Of a stretch of 55,697 nucleotides of DNA, positions 879-45,045 are shown in pieces. Origin of the DNA: a virus; the IMG/VR virus record IMGVR_UViG_3300018432_000007, positions 1 to 55,697 of that record; one strand, 5' to 3'. A model generated the notes under the pieces. It was given only the letters and a program-made list of their open reading frames with translations, did no database searches and was not told the DNA's origin. Numbering within the stretch: the stretch's first letter is position 1; each line of letters opens with the position of its first letter. The position numbers and the translations under genes were made by a program.

Positions 879-1586
879 CTACGTCGGCAGAGATGTTGCA
901 GCCCTGCGCAGCTGCTCGCATAGGTGGCGCCACACGTCGCGGTCGAGCGGCGGTACCGGGCCCGGGGTGAGGCATGGCCGGCCGGTGCCCAGGTAGTAGT
1001 CCTGGAACTTGAGATTGGTGCTGATCAGGCCGTCCGTGTACGAGCCGTGCCAGGTCACGGGGATGCCGTAGGCATCGGCGGCGATCACGCCGTGCAGGCT
1101 CGTGGTGATGATGCGTTCGCATGCTTTCATCTGCCGGATGACGCGACGCCACCCGCCGCGCGCATCGATGTACAGGGCGTCCGGGTACCGAGCGCGGGCC
1201 GGGGTGGCGTCCACGAAATGCGGCATGATCCCGACCCGGTTGGCCACCTCGATCTCGGGGTTGTACACCTCGGGGAGCAGCAGCGCCGGATCGCCGTATA
1301 CCTGCGGGACGGACACCCCATCGATGCACGACCGGGTGATGGGCCCGCGCACCGCGAGGAACGTCGCCGTCTCCGCCTGGTAGCGGCGGTCATGCTGCAC
1401 CCCGGTCCCCCACACGACGTCGCCGGGGCGTAGGGCGTTCATCACCGAGCCGACGGCGAGCACCTTCCCGTGCTCGCCGCGGTCCACGCGTTCGAGCTCG
1501 TGGCCCAGGTGGCGGAGGATCACGGGCGTCAGGACGTCGCCAAAGTTCTTCGTGTCGGGGTCCCAGTAGGTGCGCATGCGCCCCAT
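879..1586 (-). CDS. Polysaccharide pyruvyl transferase family protein
   Basis: 235 residues resembling the polysaccharide pyruvyl transferase family (CsaB/WcaK type), which moves pyruvate from phosphoenolpyruvate onto sugars of cell-wall or capsule polymers. Visible landmarks are the N-terminal YWDPDTKNFGD segment, a central VWGTGVQHD block, VRGPITR, the YGDPALLLP segment and the late TTSLHGVIAADAYGIP block, all typical of this fold. It is rather short for the family (often 300 or more residues). It is wedged between the large terminase (stop 9 bases upstream) and the small gene before the portal, an odd place for a sugar-modifying enzyme. An alternative start at 1577 removes three residues. 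Confidence 0.82.
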   Translation of the reverse strand: MGRMRTYWDPDTKNFGDVLTPVILRHLGHELERVDRGEHGKVLAVGSVMNALRPGDVVWGTGVQHDRRYQAETATFLAVRGPITRSCIDGVSVPQVYGDPALLLPEVYNPEIEVANRVGIMPHFVDATPARARYPDALYIDARGGWRRVIRQMKACERIITTSLHGVIAADAYGIPVTWHGSYTDGLISTNLKFQDYYLGTGRPCLTPGPVPPLDRDVWRHLCEQLRRAATSLPT

Positions 1587-1594
1587 GATCGCGG

Positions 1595-3085
1595 CTACCA
1601 GCCCGGCAGCGACCGCGCAGCACGCTCGGTGTCCACGACGGTCTCGCCGACGTCGGAGTGCCGCATACGCCGTAGGGCGTGCGCGAGCGTGTCGGGGATG
1701 TCGTCGTGCGCGGCCGTCGGGAACGCGGTGCACTCGGTCAGGAAGTCGTCGAGCCATGACCGGCCAGACGGGAGCTTCACCTGGTGGGCCTCGACGAGCG
1801 GGGACACCGACTGGACGCGCACGATCTTGGGCCCGGACGGCTTGACCGGCACGATCCCGTCGAGCTCCTTCTGCAGGGTCTCGATCGCGGCGGCGCCGTT
1901 CGCCGCTTCCTCGACCACGTGAGCGATCGCGTCCGGGTACCGCTTGATGAATCCGCGCATCTTCGCGAGCTGCACGGTAAACCCGCCGCGGAACCGGATC
2001 TGGTCGAGCAGGTAGTACGAGCTGCCGGTGCGTTGCCACGCCTGCCCCACCACCCAGTCGCCCGACGTCTCCCCCGCCGTGCCGAAAGACAGGTCCCATG
2101 CGGTGATGATCTGGTCCGCCGGCGGCAGCTCGTCGTCGGTGTAGAACCGCCACCACTCCAGCTTGAAGATCGTGCCATCGAGCTCGCCCGGGTGCTGCTG
2201 ATACAGGGCGTTGAAGATCGCGGACCCAACCTCGATCTTGACCGTCTCCCAGCGGGCCAACGCGTCGTCGCGGTCCTCTTCCTGCTGCACGGACAGCAGC
2301 GGTTCGCCGATCTCGCGGCCGAGCGCGTCGTTGGCCTCGGCCAGTGCGGGGATGACGAGCGTTTCCCATCCGGCCTGTTTCAGCAGCCGGCCGTTCAGGT
2401 CGTCGTCGTGCCACCTGGTGGCGATCGAGAGGATGATCGCGCCCGGCCGCATGCGCGGCTTGATGACGGACTGCCAGACCGTCCACGCCGTGTCCCGGGT
2501 CTTCTGGCTATAGGCGTCCTCCATGTGCTTGATCGGGTCATCGATGATCGCGACGCGTAGACGCCGCCCGGACATCGAGCCCTTGATGCCTCGCGCGATG
2601 ATGCCGCCGCGCTCCGTGGTGGGCACGCCCCAGTCGGTGACACCACCAGTACCCGGGAGCGGGGCGCGCTCGTCGTAGTGGCGCTTCACGTCGCTGGAGA
2701 ACTTCGTGGCCAGCGACGCCTCGGCGCTGACCAGGCCGATCTCCCAGTCCGGGCGGTTCAGGAGCAGCCATAGCGGGAACACCACGCTCGCGGTCTGCGA
2801 CTTACCCGAGCCCGGCGGCATCGAGATGATCAGCTTGGTGTCCTCGCCGCGGTCAGCCCGCTCTACGGCGCGTTCCAGCGCGGCGAGCAGAGCATCCGTG
2901 TGCGGGCGGGCGATGTACTCGTCACCGATGATGTCCCGCGCGAGATCGGGCAGGGACAGTGGCGGCTTGAGGCACTTTTCTAGCCGGTCGAGCAGCCGCA
3001 GCCGGTCTTGCGGCTGCGCGGCGGCGTAGATCTCCCGCACCTCGTCATCGGTGCACCCGCACAGCGGGTCAGTCTCCACGGCCAT
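1595..3085 (-). CDS. Terminase large subunit
   Basis: 496 residues. This is the ATP-driven DNA packaging motor and nuclease. The Walker A loop SMPPGSGKSQ is near residue 90, Walker B (RVAIIDDP) near 180 and an ATPase coupling segment (SIATRWHDDD) follows. The C-terminal RNase H-like nuclease has its first aspartate in AWDLSFG near residue 330 and a late acidic pair in HDDIPDTLAHAL. The length is normal for the family. The start overlaps the end of the small subunit gene. I prefer ATG 3085; a GTG at 3097 would add four residues and neither has a strong ribosome site. Confidence 0.95.
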   Translation of the reverse strand: MAVETDPLCGCTDDEVREIYAAAQPQDRLRLLDRLEKCLKPPLSLPDLARDIIGDEYIARPHTDALLAALERAVERADRGEDTKLIISMPPGSGKSQTASVVFPLWLLLNRPDWEIGLVSAEASLATKFSSDVKRHYDERAPLPGTGGVTDWGVPTTERGGIIARGIKGSMSGRRLRVAIIDDPIKHMEDAYSQKTRDTAWTVWQSVIKPRMRPGAIILSIATRWHDDDLNGRLLKQAGWETLVIPALAEANDALGREIGEPLLSVQQEEDRDDALARWETVKIEVGSAIFNALYQQHPGELDGTIFKLEWWRFYTDDELPPADQIITAWDLSFGTAGETSGDWVVGQAWQRTGSSYYLLDQIRFRGGFTVQLAKMRGFIKRYPDAIAHVVEEAANGAAAIETLQKELDGIVPVKPSGPKIVRVQSVSPLVEAHQVKLPSGRSWLDDFLTECTAFPTAAHDDIPDTLAHALRRMRHSDVGETVVDTERAARSLPGW

Positions 3086-3452
3086 CCTGTGCGCCACGTC
3101 GCGCGTTGATGATGGCGTTCAGACGTGCGTCGCTGTCCTGCACGGTGACCGTGCTCGACGGGCCGTTGCCGGTGCGGTCCAGGATCGCGATCGCGGCCTT
3201 GATCACGTCGCTGTCCTTGGACATGGACAGTCCGAACTCGTCGCTCGCGCCGCGCTCGACGATCCGGCCCAGGCTGCGGATCGCCGACTCGACGTAATCG
3301 TTCAGGCTCTTCTTGCTCTGCTCGATGCGGCGCTGTGGGTGGTCGACGTGACGTGTGCAGTAGATGCTGTCCGCTTTGGCGCGGTTCTTGCACTGACGGA
3401 GCGGCCCTACCGATCCACCCTTCACCATGTGCTTGCAGTACGGCCTGACCAT
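3069..3452 (-). CDS. Putative terminase small subunit
   Basis: 127 residues. The N-terminus has a Cys/His cluster (YCKHMVKGG, then RQCKNRAKADSIYCTRH) like the small zinc-binding element at the head of several actinophage small terminases. A predicted helical region follows, with a C-terminal segment (VIKAAIAILDRTGNGPSS) also seen in such proteins. It lies directly before the large terminase and overlaps it by 17 bases, the usual order. The small subunit recognises the packaging site on phage DNA. The assignment rests on position and weak motif likeness. GGGGGAGGA immediately precedes the ATG. Confidence 0.65.
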   Translation of the reverse strand: MVRPYCKHMVKGGSVGPLRQCKNRAKADSIYCTRHVDHPQRRIEQSKKSLNDYVESAIRSLGRIVERGASDEFGLSMSKDSDVIKAAIAILDRTGNGPSSTVTVQDSDARLNAIINARRGAQDGRGD

Positions 3453-3476
3453 TCCTCCCCCTCGGTTGTGCTCACT

Positions 3477-3779
3477 TCACCGCTGTAGACGGTTGTCTAC
3501 GCTCCCGGTGACCCCGCATACGGTCGACGCGGCGAGAGCGATCGCGACAGCCTCACGGCGCGTGCAGAGCCCTGCACGCCACAGCGCGGCCGTCAGTGCG
3601 ACAGATGCCCAGAACCCGATGCACCACGGGCAGGACACGAGATCTGACACCCACTGGGCCACGGGATGCTGCGACGCCATCAGCCGGCCGTGGAACGGTT
3701 CGGTGATGGCGTCCACGCCAGCGATGCGGTAGATCCGGAACGCGGCCAGGCCGATGACTATCGCCCACACGAGAGGCAT
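3477..3779 (-). CDS. DUF1360-like membrane protein
   Basis: 100 residues. The protein opens with a hydrophobic segment ([19 protein letters not shown]), has the [11 protein letters not shown] region and the signature CPWCIGFW, followed by a second hydrophobic stretch and a third near the end. This matches DUF1360, a family of small membrane proteins common in actinophages with unknown role. The start at 3779 is chosen for a well-spaced AAAGG site. Its 5' end overlaps the upstream Stealth-like gene by 22 bases, so translation is probably coupled. Confidence 0.8.
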
Positions 3780-4732
3780 TTGGTTTTCGCCTTTCTGGCT
3801 ATCTGGACATGGCGCGCGGTCGCGGCCATGCGTCGCTCTTGCGGTGTCGGGTCCGGGTGGCCGGCGGGCGCCAGAGCTGTCTCCGGGACCACGCGGGTAC
3901 CGGTCTCGGTCTTGAGTACCCGGTACCGCATGCGTGCCTTGCGGGCCGTGCGCGGGTCGGGCATCGCGGGCGCCGGAGCGTGCATGTTGCGGTCCGGGAT
4001 CCCGGGCAGCTCGAACGGCGACGAGGTCCCCAGGCCACGGCGTAGCAGGTGCGGCTCGACCGCGTTGCGGAACGTGCCCTCGACCGACGAGAGCCACGCG
4101 TGCGGCGTCGGGCCACGGTTCGCGGTGTAGATCTTGGGGTCACGCATCACGGTCCCGCCCAGGCCCTGCAGGTTGCCGTACAGGGTGCGGACGTGGGGCG
4201 CCTGGGAGCGCATCCCCGCCGCGAGATCGAGCGCCCGGAGCATCGCGGCCTTGTGGATCAGGAGCGGCGTGTGAACGTCGTAGTTGTACAGCCGCTGCCC
4301 GGGCAGGAGCTTCCCCATCAGCTGGTCCGTCTCGCGCAGCCCGACTGCCCATTTCGATGTCCATGTGGCGAACAACGGGGTGACCTTCCGCGACTCGCCG
4401 CGGTGGATCGGCAGCAGGTCCCGCACGGGCGCCAGGCAATAGAAATCGTCGTTCCACAGCACCCACGGGTCCGACACGTCCGGGGACTCGCACGCCCACC
4501 GGTAGTGAGCCCTGGTGGTGGCGTACTTCATCATCAGCGTGGGCCGCTTCACTGCGGTCAGCCGGTCGTGATCGAGCCGCAGCCACCGGGGCCAGGAGCC
4601 CACGATCCAGATGTGCCGGTAGTCGAAATTTCGTTCGATCGACCGCAGCGCGAACCGTAGTTCTCGGTTGTCCCCGGGTCGGCAGGGAATCACGACGTCG
4701 GGAGCATCCTCACGGTGCGGCATGTTGCGCAT
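3758..4732 (-). CDS. Stealth-like sugar-phosphate transferase / glycosyltransferase
   Basis: 324 residues. The arrangement resembles the Stealth family (hexose-1-phosphoryl transferases building phosphodiester-linked glycans): [10 protein letters not shown] at the N-terminus, [16 protein letters not shown] about 45 residues in, and a WNDDFYCL block near residue 105, the equivalent of the conserved NDD motif. The C-terminal 100 residues are rich in Arg and Pro and end in KCLSCGR. The ATG at 4732 follows the upstream stop by one base, suggesting translational reinitiation; 4723 is an alternative. It sits among terminase and DUF1360 genes, so it belongs to the late transcript. Confidence 0.7.
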
Positions 4733-5785: not shown

Positions 5786-6027
5786 GGCCGCGCCACCCCG
5801 CAGCGCGTGCACCGCACCATGGCGATAGCCGGCCACCAACCCGGCGCGCCGTCGTCGCGATCCCACACGGTCACGTACCGGTGGCGCCCGAACGCGCACA
5901 GGATGGGCCGCTGCGCGTAGGGCAGCGGTGGGCGCGGCATCGCCTCGGTCAGGCGGGCGGACATGCTGCCGTCATCGTCGGCGGAGATCTCGACGACGAG
6001 GCCGCGCCGCGAGCGCCGCCGGGTCAT
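5782..6027 (-). CDS. Hypothetical protein, C-terminal CxxC
   Basis: 81 residues. A basic N-terminus (MTRRRSRRG) is followed by an acidic DDDGS stretch and a C-terminal half with FGRHRYVTVWDRDDG and MVRCTRCGVARP. It has four-base ATGA overlaps with both neighbours, so it is translationally coupled. The HRY and RCTRCG elements recall the small zinc-ribbon-like proteins common in actinophages. No function assigned. Confidence 0.7.
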   Translation of the reverse strand: MTRRRSRRGLVVEISADDDGSMSARLTEAMPRPPLPYAQRPILCAFGRHRYVTVWDRDDGAPGWWPAIAMVRCTRCGVARP

Positions 6028-6437
6028 GAGTTCGCTCTCTGGGCCATGGCCGCGATGTCGGCGCGGCCCCAGAGGATGGCGAGGCGCCGACGTTCCGCCG
6101 GGGTGAGGAGGATGGCGCGGTCCAGTACCGCGATGATCCGCGCGGCGGGTGCGGCCCAGCTCTCGACGTTGTCCTCTGTGGAGCGTTCGAGATCTCCGAT
6201 CGCCTCGACCTGGTAGAGGTCACCTCGGCCGTACAGCGAGGCGTAATAGCGGGCATACCACCGCTCGGGCGTGAGGTAGACGCGGTCCGGGTGCCGCGGC
6301 AGTCCGTCGCGCTCGGGTGGGAGCTCGGCGCGCGCGGCACACCAGGTGCACCCGTCGTGTACCTTCCGGCCGTGGCCCGGCTCGATCAGGTCTCCTACCC
6401 GCAGGCTCGGGGCGCCACCGTGGAACAGGCGCATCAT
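6024..6437 (-). CDS. Arr-like (ADP-ribosyltransferase fold) protein, putative
   Basis: 137 residues. The layout resembles Arr/RNA 2'-phosphotransferase-type ADP-ribosyltransferase folds: FHGG with a histidine at the N-terminus, LRVGDLIEPG, VYLTPERWYARYYA with a tyrosine in the second motif, DLYQVEAIGDLE, then a Trp/Ala-rich C-terminal part. Arr enzymes use NAD to modify rifampicin, and related folds modify nucleic acids or proteins. An inserted CTWCA motif may bind zinc. The start at 6437 has a GGAGGAA site. Substrate cannot be predicted. The sequence could also be a family known only from phages. Confidence 0.5.
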   Translation of the reverse strand: MMRLFHGGAPSLRVGDLIEPGHGRKVHDGCTWCAARAELPPERDGLPRHPDRVYLTPERWYARYYASLYGRGDLYQVEAIGDLERSTEDNVESWAAPAARIIAVLDRAILLTPAERRRLAILWGRADIAAMAQRANS

Positions 6438-7738: not shown

Positions 7739-8279
7739 CGGGGCACGTCCCTTCTGTCGGTGTGGTCGTGGTGTCTACCTCTGGCGCGCGCAGCTGCTCG
7801 ACCTCGTCCGCGAACTGCCGCAGGATCGCCGCAGTGAACGGGGTGTCACGCTGCATGTCGTCAGCGAGCGCCCGCAAGCGACGCTCGACGGGCCCGGAAC
7901 CGGGCGGTGCACTCCACGGCTCGGGGAACACCTTGTGGACGTACGGGATCACGTCGATCTGAGGGCGCGTGTTCAGCCTCGGACGGGCGCTGGGCTGTTC
8001 GATGTACCCGTTGACGAGCGGGATCCCAGCGCGCTCGATCAGGACGTGTGTCGGTCCCCCGAGGCTCGCGGTCACCCGCACCTTGGACAGGCCGTAGTCA
8101 TCCTCGGTGTCCCGGCGGAGCAGCCCGGCCTCGTGCAGTGCGTGCACCTGGTGCTCTTCCCGGCTGTGTATGTCGTGCGCATCGCCGCTCGGGCAGCACA
8201 GCCCGTCATGGTCCATGCACGCCATGCGGTCGGTGTCGTGGTCGATCAGGATGCGTACGGCCTCGGTGATCGTGCTCAT
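7728..8279 (-). CDS. Hypothetical protein
   Basis: 183 residues. A His/Asp/Cys-rich N-terminal third (IDHDTDRMACMDHDGLCCPS) contains HDIHSREEHQVHALHEAG, suggesting metal binding. The C-terminal third is a predicted long helix (AAILRQFADEVEQLRAPEV) ending in a Thr/Gly/Cys tail. It overlaps the HIT gene by four bases. Family not recognised. Confidence 0.7.
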   Translation of the reverse strand: MSTITEAVRILIDHDTDRMACMDHDGLCCPSGDAHDIHSREEHQVHALHEAGLLRRDTEDDYGLSKVRVTASLGGPTHVLIERAGIPLVNGYIEQPSARPRLNTRPQIDVIPYVHKVFPEPWSAPPGSGPVERRLRALADDMQRDTPFTAAILRQFADEVEQLRAPEVDTTTTPTEGTCPGGC

Positions 8280-8635
8280 GCCACAGCCCCCTCGACTGTC
8301 CAGGGCAGCGCGAGCCCGTCGCCCTCACGACGCGGAATCAGGTGCAGATGGAGGTGGAACACGGTCTGCGTTGCGGCAGGGCCGCGGGAGGTGATCAGGT
8401 TCATGTCGCCGCCCATCTCCCGGGCGAGCTGCGCGGCGCTCATCATGGCCCACAGCAAGGTCTCGGAACCGCTCGTGAAGTCGGGCGCGTGGTCCTTGGG
8501 GATCACGAGCGTGTGGCCCTCGGTCACGGGCTCCAGAGGAACGATCGCCAGGGCGTTCGGCCAGTCGCGGACGACGGTGGCCGGTGCTCGGCCGGCGATG
8601 ATCTCGCAGAACACGCAGAAGTCGTCAAGGTCCAT
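8276..8635 (-). CDS. HIT family (histidine triad) nucleotide-binding protein
   Basis: 119 residues. HIT proteins hydrolyse or transfer nucleotidyl groups on small nucleotide substrates such as dinucleoside polyphosphates or AMP-lysine. The N-terminal CVFCEII motif (zinc-type HIT), VIPKDHAPDF and the catalytic triad FHLHLHLIP near residue 95 are all present, so the enzyme should be active. The start at 8635 has an AAAGGAA site inside the previous gene. A role in degrading stress or defence-signal nucleotides during infection is possible but is inference. Confidence 0.9.
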   Translation of the reverse strand: MDLDDFCVFCEIIAGRAPATVVRDWPNALAIVPLEPVTEGHTLVIPKDHAPDFTSGSETLLWAMMSAAQLAREMGGDMNLITSRGPAATQTVFHLHLHLIPRREGDGLALPWTVEGAVA

Positions 8636-8843: not shown

Positions 8844-9529
8844 GGGCGGTCGTCCCAGTCCTTGCGCAGGTCGTCCAGGTAGTTCTCGGGGTAGTCGACG
8901 CTGAGCCGGGCCGCATCATCCAGGGCCGCGATCTCGGGATGGTTGGGACGGGCCCGGACGATGTAGTCCTCGCGGTACCGGGTGCCCGCGTCGCCGGGGC
9001 GTAGCCAAGGGTGGTTCGCACGGAGCCCGTCGATCGGTGACCACCACGCGGTGAACTTGACACCGTCCTGGGTGGTCACGTCGTACAGGGCGCCCTCGAT
9101 CAGGTCGGGCATGAGCGGGGTGTGCTTGTCGAGCGTCCATGACGCGTGCTGCGGGCCGATCCACAGCGGGTATGGCGGGTAGCCCTCGATGTGCACCCCG
9201 ATGCCCTTGGCCGGGTTGCGGTCGATCCGGGTCACGGGGCCGATGGCGCGGGCCATCTTGAGCGTGAGTTCTACGGTGTCGCCTACCTCGATCAGTTCGG
9301 GGTCGGGCATGGGGTTCTCCTCGGGGTAAGGGGTCAGGGCGTAGTCGTTCTTCGCGGACTCGCGGGCGATCCGGCCGAGCTCGCGGAACGCCTCGGCTAT
9401 CGGCGTGACGACGTCGGCGTGCCACATCCGACCGGCGGCGTGGAATGCGCGGTGCATGTCTCGGACCTGCTGGACTCCGTCAGGCAGTGGGCCGATGAAC
9501 TCGCAGGCGTCGCACACGTCGTTGATCAT
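8840..9529 (-). CDS. Hypothetical protein, apparent fusion of two small genes
   Basis: 229 residues in one frame that look like two proteins. Residues 1-73 start with DVCDACEFIGPLPDG and contain a helical region ending SAKNDYALTP. Residue 74 is an internal methionine (9310) with its own strong GAGGAG ribosome site, and from there a second unit starts (MPDPELIEVGDTVELTL) with a beta-rich, KOW/Tudor-like beginning. The ATG at 9529 also has GAGGAG. So the second part may be made both as a fusion and alone. Function of either half unknown. Confidence 0.7.
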   Translation of the reverse strand: MINDVCDACEFIGPLPDGVQQVRDMHRAFHAAGRMWHADVVTPIAEAFRELGRIARESAKNDYALTPYPEENPMPDPELIEVGDTVELTLKMARAIGPVTRIDRNPAKGIGVHIEGYPPYPLWIGPQHASWTLDKHTPLMPDLIEGALYDVTTQDGVKFTAWWSPIDGLRANHPWLRPGDAGTRYREDYIVRARPNHPEIAALDDAARLSVDYPENYLDDLRKDWDDRP

Positions 9530-9951
9530 GGGGTCTCTTCTCCTCGGGCGCGGCGTCGCGCCAGGATCTTCTCGGATGCGCGCAGCGCGAACGGGCTCGG
9601 GGCCTCGACGTCGGCCAGGCCGTGCTCGGCAGCCGCGCGGCCGGACTCGAACAGGGGTATGAGGGTGGTGTATTCGTGCAGGGCGTCCACCTGCTCGGGG
9701 GTGAGCCGGCCGGTGGACTCGGCCAGGCGCACACCGAGGGACTGCGTCATGTCGTGGCAGCCCACCCACCCGGCACACATCCGGCCGTCCACCTGGTGGC
9801 ACATGAACACCCCGAGCGGCTGCAGCGCGGTGTCCTCGTCGTACGCGGGCAACTTCTCGTACTCGACGCGTTCCCAGACCCCTGACGGGACGTCGGTGCG
9901 GTATGGGCACGAGCCGCATGGCGCAGCAGCCGGGGGCAGTATCTCGGTCAT
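9526..9951 (-). CDS. DUF6283-like protein
   Basis: 141 residues. The conserved core is easily read: CGSCPYRTDVPSGVW, YEKLPAYDEDTALQP, GVFMCHQ and CAGWVGCHD. The five spaced Cys and His residues probably bind metal, perhaps an iron-sulfur cluster or zinc. DUF6283 proteins occur in many actinobacteria and their phages and have no known role. ATG 9951 has a GGGAAGGG site, and the gene overlaps both neighbours by four bases. Confidence 0.82.
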   Translation of the reverse strand: MTEILPPAAAPCGSCPYRTDVPSGVWERVEYEKLPAYDEDTALQPLGVFMCHQVDGRMCAGWVGCHDMTQSLGVRLAESTGRLTPEQVDALHEYTTLIPLFESGRAAAEHGLADVEAPSPFALRASEKILARRRARGEETP

Positions 9952-10121
9952 CGGGTCATCCCTTCCCAGTTCGCGGGGTCGAGCGTCCCGCCCATCAGCA
10001 TCGCGAGCAGCAGCGACAGGAACGCCGTGGCCAGCGTCGCGACGGCCCAGAGCACGATCTGACCCAGGATCCACAGCACGGCCACGAGGATCCCGCCGTG
10101 CAGCGGGGTGCGGCTACCCAT
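9948..10121 (-). CDS. Small two-helix membrane protein
   Basis: 57 residues. Two hydrophobic stretches are visible: GILVAVLWILGQIVLWAVA, then TAFLSLLLAMLMGG. It ends with an ATGA overlap with the DUF6283-like gene and its start overlaps the upstream gene by eight bases. The position in a chain of coupled genes supports it. A membrane role such as a lysis or exclusion factor cannot be decided. Confidence 0.65.
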   Translation of the reverse strand: MGSRTPLHGGILVAVLWILGQIVLWAVATLATAFLSLLLAMLMGGTLDPANWEGMTR

Positions 10122-10320
10122 CTACGGTCTTCCGGTAGTCGTCCGGGCTGAGGTACGTGACGCAGACCTCGCCCGGAACCGACCAGTCGACATCCACGAT
10201 CTGCTGGTTGTCGTCGAGCATGAAAGCGCCCGAGTACGCGCCGACGTACTCGGGGTCCTCCTCGGCGTTGTAGTCGGTGCTGAACCACGCCCGGTGCAGG
10301 CGCATACGTCGGCGGGTCAC
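10114..10320 (-). CDS. Hypothetical protein
   Basis: 68 residues from GTG 10320, whose GTGA overlaps the stop of the upstream gene; an ATG at 10305 is possible but has no ribosome site. The sequence has aromatic and acidic residues (YNAEEDPEYVGAYSGAF) and DWSVPGEVCVTYLSPDDY and looks like a small globular protein. Family not recognised. Confidence 0.6.
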   Translation of the reverse strand: MTRRRMRLHRAWFSTDYNAEEDPEYVGAYSGAFMLDDNQQIVDVDWSVPGEVCVTYLSPDDYRKTVDG

Positions 10321-10469
10321 TGCGGGCCCAGGGGCCGCACGAGCCACAGCGCGACGTCGCTCGCGGCGACGACGGCGTCAGCGACGATCTGCCCGTGGCC
10401 GGTCGCGATCGCGATCGCGACGGCGCTCGATCCGATGGTCAGGGCCCAGTTCTTCCAGCTGGTGTCCAC
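10317..10469 (-). CDS. Small membrane protein, first gene of operon 10469-5498
   Basis: 50 residues starting at GTG 10469 behind a strong GAGGAGG site. A hydrophobic core (ALTIGSSAVAIAIATG and VADAVVAASDVALWLV) suggests one or two membrane helices. It opens the long chain of overlapping genes that runs to 5498, just downstream of an operator-type palindrome at 10519-10532. Confidence 0.65.
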   Translation of the reverse strand: MDTSWKNWALTIGSSAVAIAIATGHGQIVADAVVAASDVALWLVRPLGPQ

Positions 10470-10512
10470 GGTGGGGACCTCCTCGGGTTCGTGTGCGTGT
10501 GGTGCACCCCAT

Positions 10513-10532
10513 AGTTTGCCACATCCATGTGG
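10513..10532 (-). promoter_or_regulatory. Operator palindrome and weak extended -10, operon 10469-5498
   Basis: CCACATCCATGTGG at 10519-10532 matches the phage-wide 14-bp palindrome. On the minus strand it runs into TGG followed by CAAACT, the place where other copies have a better -10. The bulged-A hairpin of the other copies is absent here. The site lies between divergent genes, so it could also influence the HTH gene at 10583. Confidence 0.6.
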
Positions 10533-10582
10533 GGCGTGCGACCATTGGTGTGGAACTGCACCACTATTGAGAGGGGCCTGGC

Positions 10583-10828
10583 ATGGATGCGCTCACCAAG
10601 GTCACAGAGCTGTCAGAGGAAGCCGAACTAGCTGAGGAGCGGTACAAGGCCGCGCTGGCTGCTCGGGATGACGCGATCTGGCGAGCACGGACCACGCGCT
10701 ACGAGCCTGATGGCCCGGCCAAGTACGGGCCCGGTGTCATCGCCAAGGCCGCGAACCTGACCCCCGAGCATGTCCGCCGGATCTGCAACGCAGAGGGCCG
10801 CAAGCACGTCGGCGAGAGCACGGACTGA
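10583..10828 (+). CDS. Small helix-turn-helix protein, candidate regulator
   Basis: 81 residues. The N-terminal half is a charged helix (LSEEAELAEERYKAALAARD). The C-terminal part has GVIAKAANLTPEHVRRICN, a good helix-turn-helix pattern, followed by a basic end. GAGAGG precedes the ATG. It is divergent from the 10469 operon and shares the operator-bearing intergenic region, so it is the best candidate visible for the protein that binds the repeated CCACAtgcaTGTGG palindromes. That link is inference. Confidence 0.7.
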   Translation: MDALTKVTELSEEAELAEERYKAALAARDDAIWRARTTRYEPDGPAKYGPGVIAKAANLTPEHVRRICNAEGRKHVGESTD

Positions 10829-10835
10829 GAACTAG

Positions 10836-10872
10836 CGCGACCCCCACGGATGCCGATCACGTGAGGGTCGCG
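10836..10872 (+). terminator. Hairpin after the HTH gene
   Basis: CGCGACCC and GGGTCGCG form an 8-bp stem, extended inward by CACG/CGTG with one unpaired base on each side. It follows the HTH stop by 7 bases. Confidence 0.55.
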
Positions 10873-10888
10873 AGCCTGATGGCGACAG

Positions 10889-10908
10889 GCGTCTACAACT
10901 GTAGGCGC
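10889..10908 (+). promoter_or_regulatory. Palindrome upstream of the FtsK-module membrane gene
   Basis: CTACA and TGTAG flank a 2-base centre at 10893-10904, extended by GCG/CGC. It lies 30-45 bases before the ATG at 10937 and differs from the repeated operator. It may be a separate regulator site for the 10937-13644 unit. Confidence 0.4.
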
Positions 10909-10936
10909 CACCAATCCGTTATGAGAGGTGGAGCCC

Positions 10937-11305
10937 ATGCTCTATGACATCACCGCGATCGCGGTCTGCGTGGTCGCGCTCGTGTTCATCCTGTGGGACG
11001 GGCACATCAGCAAGGTGGAGTCCTACGTACTGGCGGTGTGCTGCCTGGTCCTGGGCGCCACGTCCTGGGTCGTGGACCTCCTGCAGGGGACGGTGTTCGC
11101 GGCCGAGTGGAACGCCTACGTCGTCGCTGCGGTGCTCGCGCTGCTCGTGATCTGGAAAGGCCCCGCCGGGAAGGTGAAGGGCTTCCTCCTGATGCTGTGC
11201 GCGCTCGTGCTCGGCTCCACGGCGGTCGTGACCACCATCCTGCCCCCGATCGTGAACATGATCATCGGCGCGATCGGCGCGTTCTTCGTCGGCATGTTCA
11301 GTTGA
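10937..11305 (+). CDS. Polytopic membrane protein upstream of the translocase
   Basis: 122 residues with four predicted membrane helices: ITAIAVCVVALVFILW, YVLAVCCLVLGATSWVV, YVVAAVLALLVIW and a long C-terminal hydrophobic segment. The order of a small polytopic membrane protein followed by an FtsK/TraB-type translocase recalls the spd-tra gene neighbourhoods of actinobacterial conjugative plasmids. GAGGTGGAG supports the ATG at 10937. Its function is unknown, and a simple holin-like role is not excluded. Confidence 0.7.
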   Translation: MLYDITAIAVCVVALVFILWDGHISKVESYVLAVCCLVLGATSWVVDLLQGTVFAAEWNAYVVAAVLALLVIWKGPAGKVKGFLLMLCALVLGSTAVVTTILPPIVNMIIGAIGAFFVGMFS

Positions 11306-16979: not shown

Positions 16980-18335
16980 TCATGCGGCCATGCCGTTCCT
17001 GACCTGCTCGCGCAGCGCCAGGAGATGACGCACAGCTGCAGCAGCCTGGTGCGGAACGACGCCGTTGCCGAGCGCTTTCAGCGCATCGTTCCGCGAGATC
17101 GGCATCGTCCGGCGTGCGACCGAACCGCGGTGACCGACCGGCCGCGTGTCCCCGCCGGCTCGACGCTGCTGCAGCCGGGCACGCCACGCCTCGACGCTCT
17201 CACCTGTCACCCATCCGTCTGGGAGGCCCATCATCCACTCGACGAATCGCGGCGACAGGCGCGCAGCTCCCCCCTTCCCCGTTGCCTCGGTGGGGTCAGG
17301 TGCGGGACGCCCCAGGATCGACTCCCAGCGGGCCACGGCTGGGGCGTACTGGCGGAACCGGTGCGTCACCGCGCTGGGCAGCATCCGGTCGCCGGACGAG
17401 CCGCGCTGGTTCGGTCCCCCCTTGGTCCCGTCCGTAGCCCGGGGTGTGGGGAGCATGCGCAGCGCCTCGATCGCGAGGGACTTCCCGTGCCCGTTGCCGT
17501 TGCCGTGCGCCGACTTCATGCGTGCTGTCCAGGCGTCCCAGTCCGCGACCGCCTTGCCCGCTCCCATGTCGTTCACCGCCGGCGTCGGGAGCAGGGTCAC
17601 GGCTTCCGTACGAGCCGACCCACTGCCTCGTGCAGCGAGTCCCCGCCCGTCCCAGGCCGGTTCATCCGTGCGTAGTCCGGGCCACTGCTGCCCAGTTTCG
17701 CCTCGGGAGTCGGCAGCAGGCCAGGCAAGGACGAAGACTCGGAACCGCCCGTGAGGGGCGCCGACGTCGGAAGCGCGTACGCCCGTCCACCCAGCGTCAT
17801 ACCCGAGCTCGGCCAGGTCTCCGAGTACACGACCGAGTGCCCGCATAGGGTCTCCTCCGGCCTCTCCCATGCAGAAGTCGCAGCGTTCCAGGTGGCCAGT
17901 AGTTGCGGGGGCGTTGAGTGCTCCACGGACGTTCTCCCATACGACGAGTTGCGGGCGGATGATGTCTACGGCGTCACACATCGAGGCCCAGAGCCCCGAG
18001 CGGGTCCCTGGGCGCATCCCGGCGCGGTGACCGGCGTTGCTGAGGTCCTGGCACGGTGAGCCGCCCGAGACGACGTCTACGGGCTCGACCGCTGACCAGT
18101 CCACCTGGGTGACGTCACCGAGGTTCGGCACGCCGGGGAACCTGGTGGCGAGCACGTGGGACGGGGCGCGGTCTACCTCGGCAACCCAGGACGTCTCGAC
18201 GTCGAGCACCTGGGCCAGGCCCAGTTCCAAGCCGCCGTACCCCGCGAACAGGGCACCGGCCTTGAGGCGTCGCGGATATGGGCGAGCCCCCGTCCGGCTC
18301 TGGATGAGCCGGACGGGGGCGTGCCTGCTGATCAC
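16980..18335 (-). CDS. DNA (cytosine-5) methyltransferase
   Basis: 451 residues. Motif I is AGALFAGYGGLELGL, the catalytic PCQ loop is GGSPCQDLSNAG near residue 92, the ENV motif is VWENVRG near 135, and motif VIII-like VGAPHGRFRVFVLAWP follows. The C-terminal half holds two LLPTP/LPTPRATDG blocks and ends with the family's FVEWMMGLPDGW and NALKALGNGVVP. It methylates cytosine in an unknown site, most simply to protect phage DNA. GTG 18335 overlaps the upstream stop. A strong hairpin at 18286-18320 lies within its first codons, and a second coding-quality frame overlaps 17597-17926. Confidence 0.92.
   Translation of the reverse strand: MISRHAPVRLIQSRTGARPYPRRLKAGALFAGYGGLELGLAQVLDVETSWVAEVDRAPSHVLATRFPGVPNLGDVTQVDWSAVEPVDVVSGGSPCQDLSNAGHRAGMRPGTRSGLWASMCDAVDIIRPQLVVWENVRGALNAPATTGHLERCDFCMGEAGGDPMRALGRVLGDLAELGYDAGWTGVRASDVGAPHGRFRVFVLAWPAADSRGETGQQWPGLRTDEPAWDGRGLAARGSGSARTEAVTLLPTPAVNDMGAGKAVADWDAWTARMKSAHGNGNGHGKSLAIEALRMLPTPRATDGTKGGPNQRGSSGDRMLPSAVTHRFRQYAPAVARWESILGRPAPDPTEATGKGGAARLSPRFVEWMMGLPDGWVTGESVEAWRARLQQRRAGGDTRPVGHRGSVARRTMPISRNDALKALGNGVVPHQAAAAVRHLLALREQVRNGMAA
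17597..17926 (-). CDS. Alternative-frame ORF within the methyltransferase gene
   Basis: 109 residues in another frame of the same strand. It is not a random shadow: its third positions are mostly G/C, and it reads like the linker of phage cytosine methylases (SETWPSSGMTLGGRAYALP, APLTGGSESSS, then GLLPTPEAKLGSSGPDYARM). The LPTP block is the same kind found downstream in the main frame. It may be an overlapping gene, or the upstream part of a second protein that once joined the downstream frame near 17600. I cannot tell whether it is translated. Confidence 0.4.
   Translation of the reverse strand: MEHSTPPQLLATWNAATSAWERPEETLCGHSVVYSETWPSSGMTLGGRAYALPTSAPLTGGSESSSLPGLLPTPEAKLGSSGPDYARMNRPGTGGDSLHEAVGRLVRKP
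18286..18320 (-). terminator. Strong hairpin at the 18332/18335 gene junction
   Basis: A perfect 15-bp stem (GCCCCCGTCCGGCTC with its complement) around a 5-base loop. It lies just past the stop of 18332-19237 and therefore also in the 5' coding part of the methyltransferase. It may terminate or strongly attenuate transcription into that gene. Confidence 0.6.
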
Positions 18336-36042: not shown

Positions 36043-37460
36043 CAGCCACTCACCACCGCATTGGTCCACGCTGCCCGGACCGATCCCGTGTCAGCAGGGT
36101 CACCAGTCGTCACCGACAGGTCATGCGTTCCAGGGCTCAGCGGGGTGGTGTAGTCCCCAGACACGTTCTGTGTCGTGTCCACCGTGATCAACGAAGCGCG
36201 GCCCCACCGCGTGTCCACCGTGACGGACTCTCCCGGTCCGATGTCGTCGTTGTACGTGAACGAATTCGGCCCGTAGTACACCGTGATCGGTGCCGTCAAC
36301 GGACCAAACAACTGGAACGTCACGAACGCGCACAACGTGCCAACGATCTCGATCTCTGACGGCCCCGTCGCAACGATGCCCTCGTTGACCCAGATCTGCG
36401 CAAAGTTGAGCGCCTGCCCGACAAGCGCCGTGCCGGACCACGCAAGAATCGGCATCAGGAACGCGGCGCCGACCGGCGCGACGAACGTCTCAGAGTGCCG
36501 GGACCACGCTGTAGCGGCCGACATGTTCGTACCACCGGTCGTGGAGATCGTCGCGCCGCCCGCATCGAACCAGCGCATGTTCACGCGCGTCTGTGGGCCA
36601 CCTACGACGTTCTTCTCTGCCCACCACGACGCCGTGTAACTCGTCCCAGCGACCACCGGGATAGCGCCAGTTCCCGAAGCGGTGGTTTCCATCGTCATCG
36701 GTGAAGTGGTGTTCGCGACCAGGGTGTTCCGACTGAAGTACGAGCCGCCGTCAGGGCCGCCAGCGGAGGAATAGAAGTCGTTGAACGTTCCACCGTTGAG
36801 GGTCATCGTCAGACCCTCAAGGCGGTAGTTCGGGTGCATGTTGCCGCCACCGGCCGCGCCCGCTTCCGCGTCCACGGTATGGGTGGAGTGCCAGATGTCA
36901 CCGGGGTCTGTGCTCGCGAGCTCCAGCCGTGCGTCCTCGGCGTCGAACCGCAGCGTGACCCGGGCCGCGCCGCGGTTCGAGCGCATCCACTCGATGTCCG
37001 CGACGCGCGGCCGGCCGTGCACCATGTACGGGCCTAGGTAGATCTTCTCGGCCTCGGTCGCATCCGGGTCGTGGCAGTCCGAGAAGATCACCAGGGTGGC
37101 GCCGTCACAGTTCCTGGACCACTCCTCGGCGAGCCGGGACACCCGCTGCCGTACCCCGGGGCAGCCCGGGCACCCGGTGTTCTGCACGATCACCTGGAAC
37201 GTCAGCACCCGCGGCTCGTAGTAGTCACCGAACTGGACGACGCCGTCCCGCTGCGCGAACGCGACATCACCGTTGCGCACCGGCGGAACACCCATGCCAG
37301 CCGGCGGGACGGTGAGACACCCGAGCGGGTCCGTCGGCAGGAACTGCACGACCGGGTCCCCACCTTCCAGGCTGATCCCGTCCTCCTGCGGCAGCAGCAG
37401 GTCGGTACCGCGCCCGTCCTTCCACATCGCGATACCCCACGCACCCGAGTTGCCACTCAC
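36042..37460 (-). CDS. Distal tail-like protein with inserted beta-sandwich domain
   Basis: 472 residues. The N-terminal region (VVQFGDYYEPRVLTFQVIVQ) and RVSRLAEEWSRNCDGATLVI are typical of the distal tail protein that follows the tape measure. A central insertion of about 150 residues (from FNDFYSSAGGPDGGSYFSRN through LIP-like SGTALVGQALNFAQIWVNEG) has a carbohydrate-binding-module look with beta pattern and aromatics. The C-terminus returns to the tail fold (VYYGPNSFTYNDDIGPGESV). The insertion may bind wall glycans. GTG 37460 overlaps the tape measure stop. Confidence 0.72.
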   Translation of the reverse strand: MSGNSGAWGIAMWKDGRGTDLLLPQEDGISLEGGDPVVQFLPTDPLGCLTVPPAGMGVPPVRNGDVAFAQRDGVVQFGDYYEPRVLTFQVIVQNTGCPGCPGVRQRVSRLAEEWSRNCDGATLVIFSDCHDPDATEAEKIYLGPYMVHGRPRVADIEWMRSNRGAARVTLRFDAEDARLELASTDPGDIWHSTHTVDAEAGAAGGGNMHPNYRLEGLTMTLNGGTFNDFYSSAGGPDGGSYFSRNTLVANTTSPMTMETTASGTGAIPVVAGTSYTASWWAEKNVVGGPQTRVNMRWFDAGGATISTTGGTNMSAATAWSRHSETFVAPVGAAFLMPILAWSGTALVGQALNFAQIWVNEGIVATGPSEIEIVGTLCAFVTFQLFGPLTAPITVYYGPNSFTYNDDIGPGESVTVDTRWGRASLITVDTTQNVSGDYTTPLSPGTHDLSVTTGDPADTGSVRAAWTNAVVSG

Positions 37461-40105
37461 GTCGCCACACCTCCGATTACCTCTTGCCTCGACTGCGTCG
37501 CGTACCTGACGTTCCAGTTGATCTCGCGCAGGCGACCGCCGGACGTCGTCGGCCCGGTGAACACCTGCGTCACGTTCACGCTGGAGCCGACCGAAACACC
37601 CTCAGCAGCGGTCGCCTGTGCCCCCTGACGGGCCGCAGACTGCGTCACGGCCCCAGTGGGCGCCAGAGGCGCCAGAGCCCGCTGCATGGCCCGTGCAGGG
37701 AGGTTGACGTTCGTCATGAGCCCGTCGGCGATCATCTGCGCGATCACCTCGCCCGAGTGCTCCGGGCTGCCCTGCCCGGACAGCGGCCCGAGCTTGGCGG
37801 GGGAGAACGGGAGGTAGTTTCGGATCGTGCCCGCGACCGACGACGCCGCGTTGCCCAGCGCGCCGAGCATGGCGTATATGCCGTTGATCAGGCCCTGGAC
37901 GATGTCCCGCCCCGAGTTGTAGAGCATGGACCCGAGGTTGCCGAGCGTCCGGCCGATCTGCCCCGGCAGGTTTCCGAAGTACGTGAGCACTGCACTCAGG
38001 CCGCTGCGCACCGCGTTTCCGATGGTCCTGGCCCCCAGGCTGAACAGGCTCTGCGCGATGCTCCACAGCCCGCGCACGTTGGCGATCACCTCGTTGCGCA
38101 GCCTGATGAATCGGACTATCAGGCTGATGATCCAGTTCGCGATGCCCTGGATGATCCGGACCTGGAACTGGGTGAACGACGCGGTCACACCGTTCCACCA
38201 GTCGCGCACCGCAGTGAGCACCTGCTGGCCGCCGTTGCGGAAATAGTTCTGCACCGTGCGCCACAGGAACCCCACGATCCCGGTCAAGATCGACACGACA
38301 CCGTCCGCGATCTGCGTCAGGCCATCCCACGCCTTTTCCCAATCGCCGGTGAACACCCCGGTCAGGAATGTGATCAGGCCACCGAGGATGTCGAATACCC
38401 CGCCGAGCACGTCGACAACCAGGTTGATCGCGTTCACCACCTGGGCGCCGAAGATCGTCAGCAGGATGCCGAGCAGCGGCTGCAGGAGATCGAATATCCC
38501 CGTGATCGCCGGGCCAAGGTTCGCTGTGAATAGTTCCCCGATCTGCGCGATAGCGGGCCCCAGGGCGCCCACGATCATGGTCACCACGGGCGCGAGCGCC
38601 TGCACGAGGCCCACGATCAGCGACGCGACCAGGCCGAGCAGCGGCGCCAGGCCAGACAGCGCCGTGCCCAGCGTCTCACCGAGCACCGTCGCGACCGGCA
38701 GCAGCGCGTCGCGCAGCAGGTTGATCTGCGGGATCAGCACCCCGATCACGGCGAACAGGCCAGTGAAGATCGGACCGATGACCGCGCCGAGCTGCGAGAT
38801 CGCGTCCCCGGTCTGCGTCACCAGGCCGAAAAAGTCAGCGAGCCCGGCCTGCGCGCCCGCAGTCTGCACGAACGCGGCGAGCTGCCCGGTCATGTCGCTG
38901 AACACCGAGATGAGCTCGCCACCGATGCCCGCGCCCTGACCGAGCACGGACACCAGGATCGAGCCCAGGTTCCCCACGATGGCGATCAGGTCCCCGGCCA
39001 CCACGTTCGCCTGTTCGAGGAACGCGGTCAGCTGCCCCGACTCCGCGATGCCCTGGGCCCAGGTCCCGAACGAGAGACCGACATCGGATATCGCCTGGGC
39101 GACGTCGAGCGCTGGCCCACCAGCGGCGGTGAAGATCGCGAGCAGCCCGGCTCCTGCGGCGCCCGCGCCGGGCAGCAGCGCGGCGAGGGTCGCGTTCAGG
39201 TCACCCAGGATGGTGTCCAGCTGGGCCACGAACCGGTCGGACTGCGCGAACTCAGCGAACCCGAGCGCGGCCTGGTTCAGCGTGCCGGCTGTCGCCTGCA
39301 GCTGCGTCTGCAGCACGGGCAGGATCGCCCCGGAGATTCCCGAGAGCTGGGACGCGACACCGGCGAACACGGTCTGCTGGATGCTGTCCTGGAACGATGA
39401 CCACGCCGGGCCGAGCGCACCTACCTCGGTCACGACGTCCCGAGCCGCGGGTGCGAGCCCTTCCAGGGCCGCAGTGAGCTGGTCCTGCGTGGCCGCGCTG
39501 ATGGCCCCTGTGGCGGCGAGTTCCTGCTGCGCGGTCGCCTGGGCCGCGAACGCATCCGATAGGCCCTTGCTGGCCACCGTGGCGGTTACCTGGGCCAGCC
39601 CCAGGGACGCGAGCACCCCGCCCGCGCTGATCGCCGCACCGGATGCCTGCGCGAGTGCACCGGCCACGGCCACCGCACCGGCCACGACGCCACCGAGCCC
39701 GGCGCCGAGCGGCGAGATCGCGGACAGTGCGCTCACGCTCGCGGCGCCCACCCGCGCGATCGAGAACGCCAGCTGGCCGAACGTCGACACACCCGGCTCG
39801 GCCGAACTCACCCCCCGGGAGAATCCGTCACCGAACCCGCGCCCGGCGTTGTCACCTTCCTGCGTCGCCGATGCGACGACGCCGCGCAGCATGCCGGACA
39901 GATCGATGCCGGACGTACCGCGAGCGATCCCCGACCGGATCCCAGAGGAGATCCCCGCACCGATGCCCGCGGAGATCCCCCGGCCGATGGTGTTCCCCGC
40001 AGCGCTCGCGCGGGCGCCGCGCGCACCGCGGTCTACCTCGTCCTCGATCGAGTCGGCTATGTCGTTGTCGGTGACATCGAGGTTGACCGGTACCCGGATG
40101 ACCAT
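37457..40105 (-). CDS. Tape measure protein
   Basis: 882 residues, the longest gene. It has an Ala/Gly-rich N-terminus (GNTIGRGISAGIGAGISSGI), several hydrophobic segments (LVASLIVGLVQALAPVVTMI), and repeating helical regions toward the C-terminus, as in siphovirus tape measures. Assuming about 0.15 nm per residue it predicts a tail of roughly 130 nm. It follows the frameshifted chaperone genes, the standard order. ATG 40105 is two bases upstream of the chaperone's stop codon. Confidence 0.9.
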   Translation of the reverse strand: MVIRVPVNLDVTDNDIADSIEDEVDRGARGARASAAGNTIGRGISAGIGAGISSGIRSGIARGTSGIDLSGMLRGVVASATQEGDNAGRGFGDGFSRGVSSAEPGVSTFGQLAFSIARVGAASVSALSAISPLGAGLGGVVAGAVAVAGALAQASGAAISAGGVLASLGLAQVTATVASKGLSDAFAAQATAQQELAATGAISAATQDQLTAALEGLAPAARDVVTEVGALGPAWSSFQDSIQQTVFAGVASQLSGISGAILPVLQTQLQATAGTLNQAALGFAEFAQSDRFVAQLDTILGDLNATLAALLPGAGAAGAGLLAIFTAAGGPALDVAQAISDVGLSFGTWAQGIAESGQLTAFLEQANVVAGDLIAIVGNLGSILVSVLGQGAGIGGELISVFSDMTGQLAAFVQTAGAQAGLADFFGLVTQTGDAISQLGAVIGPIFTGLFAVIGVLIPQINLLRDALLPVATVLGETLGTALSGLAPLLGLVASLIVGLVQALAPVVTMIVGALGPAIAQIGELFTANLGPAITGIFDLLQPLLGILLTIFGAQVVNAINLVVDVLGGVFDILGGLITFLTGVFTGDWEKAWDGLTQIADGVVSILTGIVGFLWRTVQNYFRNGGQQVLTAVRDWWNGVTASFTQFQVRIIQGIANWIISLIVRFIRLRNEVIANVRGLWSIAQSLFSLGARTIGNAVRSGLSAVLTYFGNLPGQIGRTLGNLGSMLYNSGRDIVQGLINGIYAMLGALGNAASSVAGTIRNYLPFSPAKLGPLSGQGSPEHSGEVIAQMIADGLMTNVNLPARAMQRALAPLAPTGAVTQSAARQGAQATAAEGVSVGSSVNVTQVFTGPTTSGGRLREINWNVRYATQSRQEVIGGVAT

Positions 40106-41819: not shown

Positions 41820-42396
41820 CGATCCTCCCCCTGATCGTCCAGGCCCCGCCAACACAGTCGTTGGGGCCCAGTGGTACCCAACTGTCCAGCACGATACCCG
41901 CATCGATCAACCGTCGCGGTCGCTCGGGGCAACAGGTGATCGCGTAGCGGATCCCGTCAGCGTCCCGGGCCTGCCGGATCGCGTCCTGCTGGATCTCATC
42001 CACGGGTGGCGGGTTGCCGTCCTCGTCCATCTTGGACGCGCAGCGGACAGCGCCGATCTGCGCGGTGAACTGCCAGACCTGGCAGTTGCCCGCCCCGGCG
42101 TCACTGCTCGGTATGCGGGTGATGCTCTGGATGGCAGCCCACAGCTGCCCGTCGCTCTCGTCGCAGGGCCCAGTGCCGCACGAGTCCCACGGGACGTCGA
42201 GCCCGGGGTACACGGCGACCCTGCAGAACGGAGGCAGCAGGCACAGACCGCCCGGGGACTCGTCGGACCCGGGCGAGTCGTCCCCGCCTGCGAGCAGTTC
42301 GAGGATGTCGGCCAACAGCTCCAGCACCTTCATCGCGCCCTTGCTGGAGTAGTGGCCCGGGCTGTCGCTCGGTGACCCCCAGATCTGTTCCGTCAT
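41806..42396 (-). CDS. Head-to-tail connector protein, Cys-rich
   Basis: 196 residues with 11 cysteines. Near the N-terminus is a SPGGDDSPGSDESPGG-type segment. A helical ELLADILELLAGG region precedes the SPG stretch, and PFCRVAVYPGLDVPWDSCG and GNCQVWQFTAQIG follow; the strands fit a head-completion or tail-terminator protein. ATG 42396 overlaps the upstream stop. The exact role is not certain. Confidence 0.62.
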   Translation of the reverse strand: MTEQIWGSPSDSPGHYSSKGAMKVLELLADILELLAGGDDSPGSDESPGGLCLLPPFCRVAVYPGLDVPWDSCGTGPCDESDGQLWAAIQSITRIPSSDAGAGNCQVWQFTAQIGAVRCASKMDEDGNPPPVDEIQQDAIRQARDADGIRYAITCCPERPRRLIDAGIVLDSWVPLGPNDCVGGAWTIRGRIDVCC

Positions 42397-43292
42397 GACG
42401 TGCACGCCCCTGCTGTGGGCCAGGTCAGCTCGGTCTGCTGCACGAGCTCGGGCGACAGGATCGAGGGCGTAGCCGCGCCCACATAGCGAGACTGTTCGAT
42501 CCACGCATCGATCTCCCAGATGCCGGTGCGCATGCTGGCCAGGTTCTCGAACCGGTCATTGAACCCCATCGTGATGTTGTTCCGGGTGATCGTCTGGATG
42601 CGCTTGGGCAGCTGGCAGTCGGCCCGCTTGAGGCACGACTTGAGGAATTCGCACATCAGGGTGCCGGTCACCCAGTCGCCGCCGTCGGGCACGCACTGCC
42701 CTTCCAGCACCGTGATCGACCACGTCCCGGGCCCGTCGGTCTTCCCGAGCTCCTGGCACACGGGCCACTGCCCGCCGTCGGTCCGCACGATCCGGTTCCG
42801 GTCGTACACCGCGACCATCCCGCACGGGTCGTAGTCGACGCCATCGAGACGCACGTTCAGGACCTGGTCGACGTCGGACAGGTAGATCTCGGATACCGCC
42901 GAGCACTGGCACCCCTTCCTGCAGGTGCCGCACGGGACGTTCACCCAGTCGAACGAGCCAGGCACCCGCCATGGCACGGAAGCGATCGCCGGACCCGAGT
43001 ACCCACCGCAGCAGTTCGGGCCCGGGCTGCAGTTCTCCCGGCATGGCCGGTACGTCTTGGGGCACCCGCCGTACTGCTTCCCAGTCGCGGTCCACAGGAA
43101 CCTCGCCGCCCAGTTCCGCGCGATCAGCGCGAGCGCGGGGGGCACCTCCTGCGGGTCGCTCAGCTTGAGCGAGCAGCACTCCTCGCACACGTACGGCTCC
43201 ACCCAGCAGATGTCACCGCAGGTGATCAGCCCAGGGCCCGGCGACGGGCCCGGGGAAGGGCCAGGAGACACCCCAGGGGACTCGACAGTCAT
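42393..43292 (-). CDS. Head-to-tail adaptor-like protein, very Cys-rich
   Basis: 299 residues with 21 cysteines. It starts with repeated SPG units (VESPGVSPGPSPGPSPGPG), then CGDICWVEPYVCEECC and later CGTCRKGCQCSAV. The C-terminal half (NITMGFNDRFENLASMRTG) resembles adaptor proteins with a WEIDAWI helix. Many of the cysteines are near each other and could form disulfides or metal sites. It lies next to the tail tube gene; a terminator-like hairpin separates them. Confidence 0.62.
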   Translation of the reverse strand: MTVESPGVSPGPSPGPSPGPGLITCGDICWVEPYVCEECCSLKLSDPQEVPPALALIARNWAARFLWTATGKQYGGCPKTYRPCRENCSPGPNCCGGYSGPAIASVPWRVPGSFDWVNVPCGTCRKGCQCSAVSEIYLSDVDQVLNVRLDGVDYDPCGMVAVYDRNRIVRTDGGQWPVCQELGKTDGPGTWSITVLEGQCVPDGGDWVTGTLMCEFLKSCLKRADCQLPKRIQTITRNNITMGFNDRFENLASMRTGIWEIDAWIEQSRYVGAATPSILSPELVQQTELTWPTAGACTS

Positions 43293-43326
43293 GCGCTCAG
43301 CTCCTCCGCTTCACGGGGCGTACAGG

Positions 43327-43366
43327 CCAGCGGGCGCCGAGAGGAACATGCCTCGGCGCCCGCTGG
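43327..43366 (-). terminator. Hairpin between tail tube and adaptor genes
   Basis: A perfect 15-bp stem (CCAGCGGGCGCCGAG with its complement) around a 10-base loop. It may reduce transcription downstream of the abundant capsid and tube proteins. Confidence 0.75.
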
Positions 43367-43376
43367 ATCAGGTTGG

Positions 43377-44156: not shown

Positions 44157-44172
44157 CGCTACTTTCCTTTCG

Positions 44173-45042: not shown

Positions 45043-45045
45043 GTG

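Follow-up and report, generated by a model that had tools for sequence, protein, structure and literature searches.

Four transferase genes and their setting

We analyzed a single IMG/VR viral record (IMGVR_UViG_3300018432_000007; 55,697 bases, GC ~68%), hereafter referred to over its whole length as the window, with a focus on four predicted glycan-modifying enzymes. These are a polysaccharide (ketal-)pyruvyl transferase (PyrT; 879–1586, − strand), a Stealth-like sugar-1-phosphate transferase (3758–4732, −), a GT4-type glycosyltransferase (GT; 51980–52915, −), and a class I S-adenosylmethionine (SAM)-dependent methyltransferase (MT; 46862–47383, +). All four genes lie where a preliminary description of this DNA had placed them; three belong to Pfam families with scores above the cut-off, and the Stealth-like protein was recognized by profile and fold.

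The contig is circularly complete, as both window ends carry an exact 123-base repeat and the portal gene spans their junction. Given the repeat, only ~4.6 kb separate positions 879 and 51980 once the map is closed into a circle. A block of virion genes on the − strand wraps round the window ends in the order large terminase (TerL; 1595–3079, domains Terminase_6N and Terminase_6C), PyrT, portal, protease (53274–54029), Acb2-like gene, GT4, amidase, major capsid protein (45046–46725, phrog_777), major tail protein (43377–44156, phrog_792), adaptor, and tape measure (37457–40105). TerL sits between the Stealth-like gene and PyrT. The earlier statement that these two transferases flank the terminase genes thus stands, with the small terminase (3069–3452) called by position only. 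PyrT, the Stealth-like gene, and GT4 share the − strand with the virion genes; the methyltransferase is encoded on the + strand.

The Stealth-like protein (324 aa) consists of a core of ~240 aa and a C-terminal extension of ~80 aa, and its gene lies upstream of the DUF1360 and terminase genes. We call it Stealth-like, and not a Stealth protein proper, because its Stealth_CR2 score (PF11380, 32.5 bits) is under the gathering cut-off of 39.4. The family assignment is nonetheless firm, and sugar-1-phosphate transfer is the predicted activity. A profile of the protein matched GNPTAB among PDB sequences (E 1e-11). An alignment of 25 phage sequences was built and the structure was predicted (pLDDT 87), for which the first 13 Foldseek matches were all GlcNAc-1-phosphotransferase (GNPT) or Mycobacterium tuberculosis CpsY. 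Z scores (VIA-align, DALI scale) were 19.6 for GNPT and 17.7 for CpsY, as opposed to 12.6 for the next fold. Across 14 divergent phage Stealth sequences, N94-D95-D96, which aligns with the NDD motif of GNPT, is invariant, as are H154 and R182, the latter a candidate counterpart of CpsY R419. CpsY activity requires N322 and D324 of the N-x-D motif in CR2, plus R419 in CR3 (PMC10668966). The window protein resembles GNPTAB and CpsY in its fold and N-D-D motif, and putatively in its conserved histidine and arginine, but differs from them in being compact, divergent, below the CR2 cut-off, and encoded in a virion block. Within its C-terminal extension (3758–4020, −) lies a segment of the [16 protein letters not shown] type. 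Several other Stealth proteins of phages end in short tails loosely like it (yxxxGxxxxPGDII), and this tail could act as a docking module.

PyrT (235 aa; PS_pyruv_trans PF04230, 41.8 bits, cut-off 25.3) starts a few bases past the large-terminase stop. Fold comparison was used for this protein because a profile search of PDB sequences returned no match. The top Foldseek match of the model (pLDDT 93.7) was yeast Pvg1p (probability 0.99), with a Z score of 10.8 that is level with those of UDP-GlcNAc epimerases and other GT-B folds. H165, K193, and R80 are invariant over 16 sequences, and only the histidine could be confidently matched to the residues that bind phosphoenolpyruvate (PEP) in CsaB, namely H308, K328, and R148 (PMC10435577). 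PyrT is like CsaB and Pvg1p in its PF04230 domain and in the SLHG histidine (H165, the counterpart of the PEP-binding CsaB H308), and Pvg1p ranks first among its Foldseek matches. It differs in length (235 versus ~400 aa), in the residue two positions ahead of the key histidine, which is R306 in CsaB and a serine here, and in being phage-borne beside a Stealth gene.

The GT4 (311 aa; Glyco_trans_1_4 PF13692, 43.1 bits, cut-off 27) follows the portal, protease, and Acb2-like genes, and its GTG start overlaps the stop of the last of these. Its segment SETYGRVGVEG contains the E-x7-E motif, which is retained in the homologues listed. The protein is homologous to gp20 of Streptomyces phage TurkishDelight. 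The methyltransferase (173 aa; Methyltransf_23 PF13489, 35.9 bits, cut-off 27) has DIGPGEG as motif I, and its gene and that for the major capsid protein point away from each other. Its relatives adjoin glycosyltransferases and sugar-nucleotide genes in prophiGD91-2, Phrappuccino, and other phages. In PHROGs, the Stealth-like protein and GT4 were placed in families without an assigned function, and no family was assigned to PyrT or the methyltransferase.

Clustering in unrelated phages and retention in relatives

A search with the PyrT alignment recovered nine loci outside the window lineage (at least 39% identity). A Stealth homologue was next to PyrT in seven of the nine, mostly overlapping it, and in an eighth (L186) it lay across two intervening genes; the ninth (L182), a 5-kb contig, had no Stealth homologue. 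Rhamnosyltransferase-type GTs were present in seven of these loci and methyltransferases in three. At L184, GT, MT, PyrT, and Stealth overlap in one row, and two further loci (L179 and L181) have the order GT-MT-GT-PyrT-Stealth. Three others combine the enzymes with virion genes: TerL-portal-Stealth-protease-GT-PyrT-capsid (L186), protease-GT-acyltransferase-GT-PyrT-capsid (L182), and PyrT-Stealth-TerS-TerL-portal-protease-capsid (L183), with the acyltransferase and the functions at L183 read from sequence only. The Stealth proteins at these unrelated loci are only 23–29% identical to that of the window, and the clustering is therefore not the result of a recent transfer. Stealth genes are also scarce, with 256 relatives found by a pattern search of 2.9 million contigs (such searches miss distant members), which makes chance adjacency of PyrT and Stealth very unlikely. 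The neighbor of the Carin-5 PyrT, gp97, was considered as a further case and rejected, as neither Pfam nor the Stealth profile identified it as Stealth. A hexapeptide-repeat (acetyltransferase-type) protein was recognized from sequence inside the PyrT cassette of L182 (1581–1949), which suggests O-acetylation as a possible additional decoration.

The four genes were also retained within the window lineage. Two full-length contigs, G004 (56,130 bases) and G013 (56,772 bases), carry all of them at 68–85% and 59–75% identity, respectively. PyrT was conserved in G001 and other contigs besides these two, and GT4 was additionally found in G001, G008, and G009. G013 shares most virion proteins with the window at ~45–75% identity and does not share most of the non-virion genes, and it retains all four enzymes, with GT4 between the protease and capsid genes. 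The enzymes are under purifying selection, with estimated dN/dS values between the window and G004 (PyrT 0.20, Stealth 0.30, GT4 0.43, MT 0.27) near the range of virion genes. The corresponding TerL value was discarded as an artefact because the assembled G004 sequence has an in-frame stop codon in the large terminase gene (~9400–11020).

These observations bear on whether the four genes could be a chance gathering of unrelated accessory functions with separate roles. Their dispersal in the window, with one gene on the opposite strand, would fit such an origin. However, two full-length relatives have kept all four even though their genomes are rearranged, and contiguous cassettes of the same enzyme kinds occur in unrelated phages, so we regard chance gathering as highly improbable. 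Because the same four enzyme kinds sit side by side in unrelated phages, the scattered window enzymes probably act as a single set. The proposal of one glycan-modifying set made in the preliminary description is thereby strengthened, by contiguity in unrelated phages and by retention in the two rearranged relatives.

Placement among virion genes and the likely acceptor

On balance, we favor the reading that the four enzymes form a set with which the phage builds and decorates its own virion glycan, with a capsid or tail protein as the likely acceptor; the major capsid and major tail proteins are the candidates. PyrT, the Stealth-like gene, and GT4 are co-oriented with the virion genes, and late genes lie close to PyrT and GT4 or overlap them. 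In a set of 62 non-redundant Stealth loci, the order major tail protein-Stealth-adaptor is found in 34, and the nearest virion gene is at most three genes away in 47. Elsewhere the enzymes are found in MT-GT4-major tail protein-Stealth-adaptor (L122) and capsid-MT-GT4-connector (L134) arrangements.

The same enzymes might instead act on the infected host, modifying its capsule or a wall polymer of teichoic-acid-like or arabinogalactan type so that superinfection is blocked or release is made easier. This would be in keeping with the known relatives CsaB and CpsY, which act on wall and capsule polysaccharides (PMC10435577, PMC10668966), with the adjacency of PyrT to an amidase gene at three loci (G013, L176, and L177), and with the membrane-type DUF1360 protein encoded next to the Stealth-like gene. 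On the other hand, none of the four enzymes has a clear membrane segment, no flippase or polymerase was seen in the genes scanned, and unrelated phages repeatedly have these genes interleaved with those for portal, protease, capsid, and tail proteins. Integrase and resolvase (PF00589, PF00239) were not detected in the window, G004, or G013, in a search that did detect its positive controls; there is accordingly no sign of lysogens. The recurrence in head and tail blocks, the lack of integrase or resolvase, and the lack of a flippase among the scanned genes lead us to prefer a virion protein over a wall polymer, and we consider the latter unlikely. Of the two acceptors that the preliminary description had offered, a virion protein and host wall polymer, gene placement thus speaks for the first.

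Several points weigh against this putative virion acceptor. No recognized virion gene lies within ten genes of the Stealth gene in 11 of the 62 loci, and BrutonGaster, a Gordonia phage, encodes its Stealth homologue among replication genes, far from the virion block. In G013, PyrT has been relocated beside the amidase gene and the methyltransferase is found elsewhere, both outside the virion block. The earlier claim that all four genes are within or beside virion genes hence applies to the window but not to PyrT and MT of this relative. Adjacency to late genes could also mean only that wall-modifying enzymes are expressed late.

Glycosylation of modified bases is common among phage GTs, and the enzymes might hypermodify phage DNA by glycosylating bases, thereby evading restriction. 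The window does encode a C5-cytosine DNA methylase (16980–18335, −). However, the set-bearing relatives lack a homologue of this methylase, as do all six related contigs compared, and sugars are the substrates of GNPT/CpsY-type and CsaB-type enzymes. No base-hydroxylating enzyme was seen, although the TET/JBP search was uninformative since its controls were silent. Taken together, DNA hypermodification is the least probable of the explanations considered.

If the set does act on the virion, GT4 would place a host-derived nucleotide sugar on a primed capsid or tail protein during late expression. The methyltransferase might then O-methylate a sugar with SAM as donor, PyrT would attach a pyruvate ketal from phosphoenolpyruvate, and the Stealth-like enzyme would move a sugar-1-phosphate from a UDP-sugar and leave a phosphodiester. 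The ketal and the phosphodiester would together give an anionic, methyl-capped coat. In this scheme the acceptor, the reaction order, the sugars involved, and what the phage gains (adsorption, stability, or shielding) are our inference. The statement in the preliminary description that the four transferases would suffice for a decorated glycan remains a prediction, since no priming enzyme for the acceptor was identified.

A different order of events is conceivable, if doubtful, in which Stealth primes the glycan by protein phosphoglycosylation, putting sugar-1-phosphate directly on a virion protein (the major tail protein being the most likely one), and the GT, MT, and PyrT elaborate on it. 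It would fit the position of Stealth directly after the major tail gene in the 34 loci noted above. It would also fit a search limited to the GT4 and GT2 families, which gave no match in 18 of the 26 phage records where Stealth lies in the virion region. At least one of the 18 (L073) carries a different type of GT close by.

Relation to known systems and other features of the window

Virion glycosylation by phage-encoded enzymes has a precedent in the mycobacteriophages Che8, Corndog, and Myrna. Their own glycosyltransferases glycosylate capsid and tail-tube proteins, which shields the particles from antibodies (PMC12363180, PMC11652166, citing Freeman et al. 2023). The window transferases are likewise phage-encoded and located in a virion block. 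A homologue of the window methyltransferase is also found among GT genes just upstream of the terminase in prophiGD91-2, a prophage of Gracegardnervirinae, the subfamily of F1 phages. In contrast, tblastn with the window GT4 matched no mycobacteriophage, and the pyruvyl transferase and Stealth phosphotransferase of the window would be additional steps.

To our knowledge, tailed-phage virion glycosylation is documented only in a few mycobacteriophages. In a search that most subscription papers lay outside, we found no report of virion glycosylation involving a pyruvyl transferase or Stealth gene of a phage. The predicted addition of a Stealth phosphotransferase and a pyruvyl transferase to known phage virion glycosylation thus appears to be new. 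Should this recurrent four-enzyme set act as proposed, some phage particles would carry acidic, methyl-capped glycans, a kind of chemistry met elsewhere in capsules, in walls, and in lysosomal targeting, with a bearing on phage adsorption, particle stability, and immune recognition. TurkishDelight has a related virion module in which gp20 (GT4) and gp22 (a Stealth homologue) flank the major tail protein; it differs from the window in that no PyrT or MT homologue was found there and in that its GT comprises two GT domains in tandem. Both TurkishDelight gp22 and gp6 of Fionnbharth-type mycobacteriophages, likewise a Stealth homologue, are currently annotated only as hypothetical and are candidates for testing.

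Two further genes adjoin the set. The membrane-type DUF1360 protein (3477–3779, −; PF07098, 35.6 bits) is encoded at the same position in all window-like relatives, and its gene overlaps the Stealth-like stop by 22 bases; it may be a candidate member of the four-enzyme set. The Acb2-like gene (52912–53262, −) encodes an Acb2/Tad1 hairpin-domain protein (PF24729, 39.1 bits, cut-off 27; phrog_1454) with a possible anti-CBASS or anti-Thoeris role.

A nucleotide search with the first 25 kb of the window matched no phage record, and no tRNA genes were found in the window. An alignment-based genome scan matched prophage-type loci of Streptomyces and Nonomuraea, with no close host found for the window lineage. 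Among the remaining genes, a HIT-domain protein (8276–8635, −) is kept in each of the six related contigs compared; five of these also keep a small protein (6024–6437, −) with a weak, sub-threshold match to Arr-type ADP-ribosyltransferases. Cysteine is unusually abundant in the virion proteins encoded at 42393–46725 (−), which comprise the adaptor (19 of 265 residues), major tail protein (10/259), capsid (14/559), and their neighbors, and high-cysteine virion proteins also occur in the distant relative TurkishDelight.

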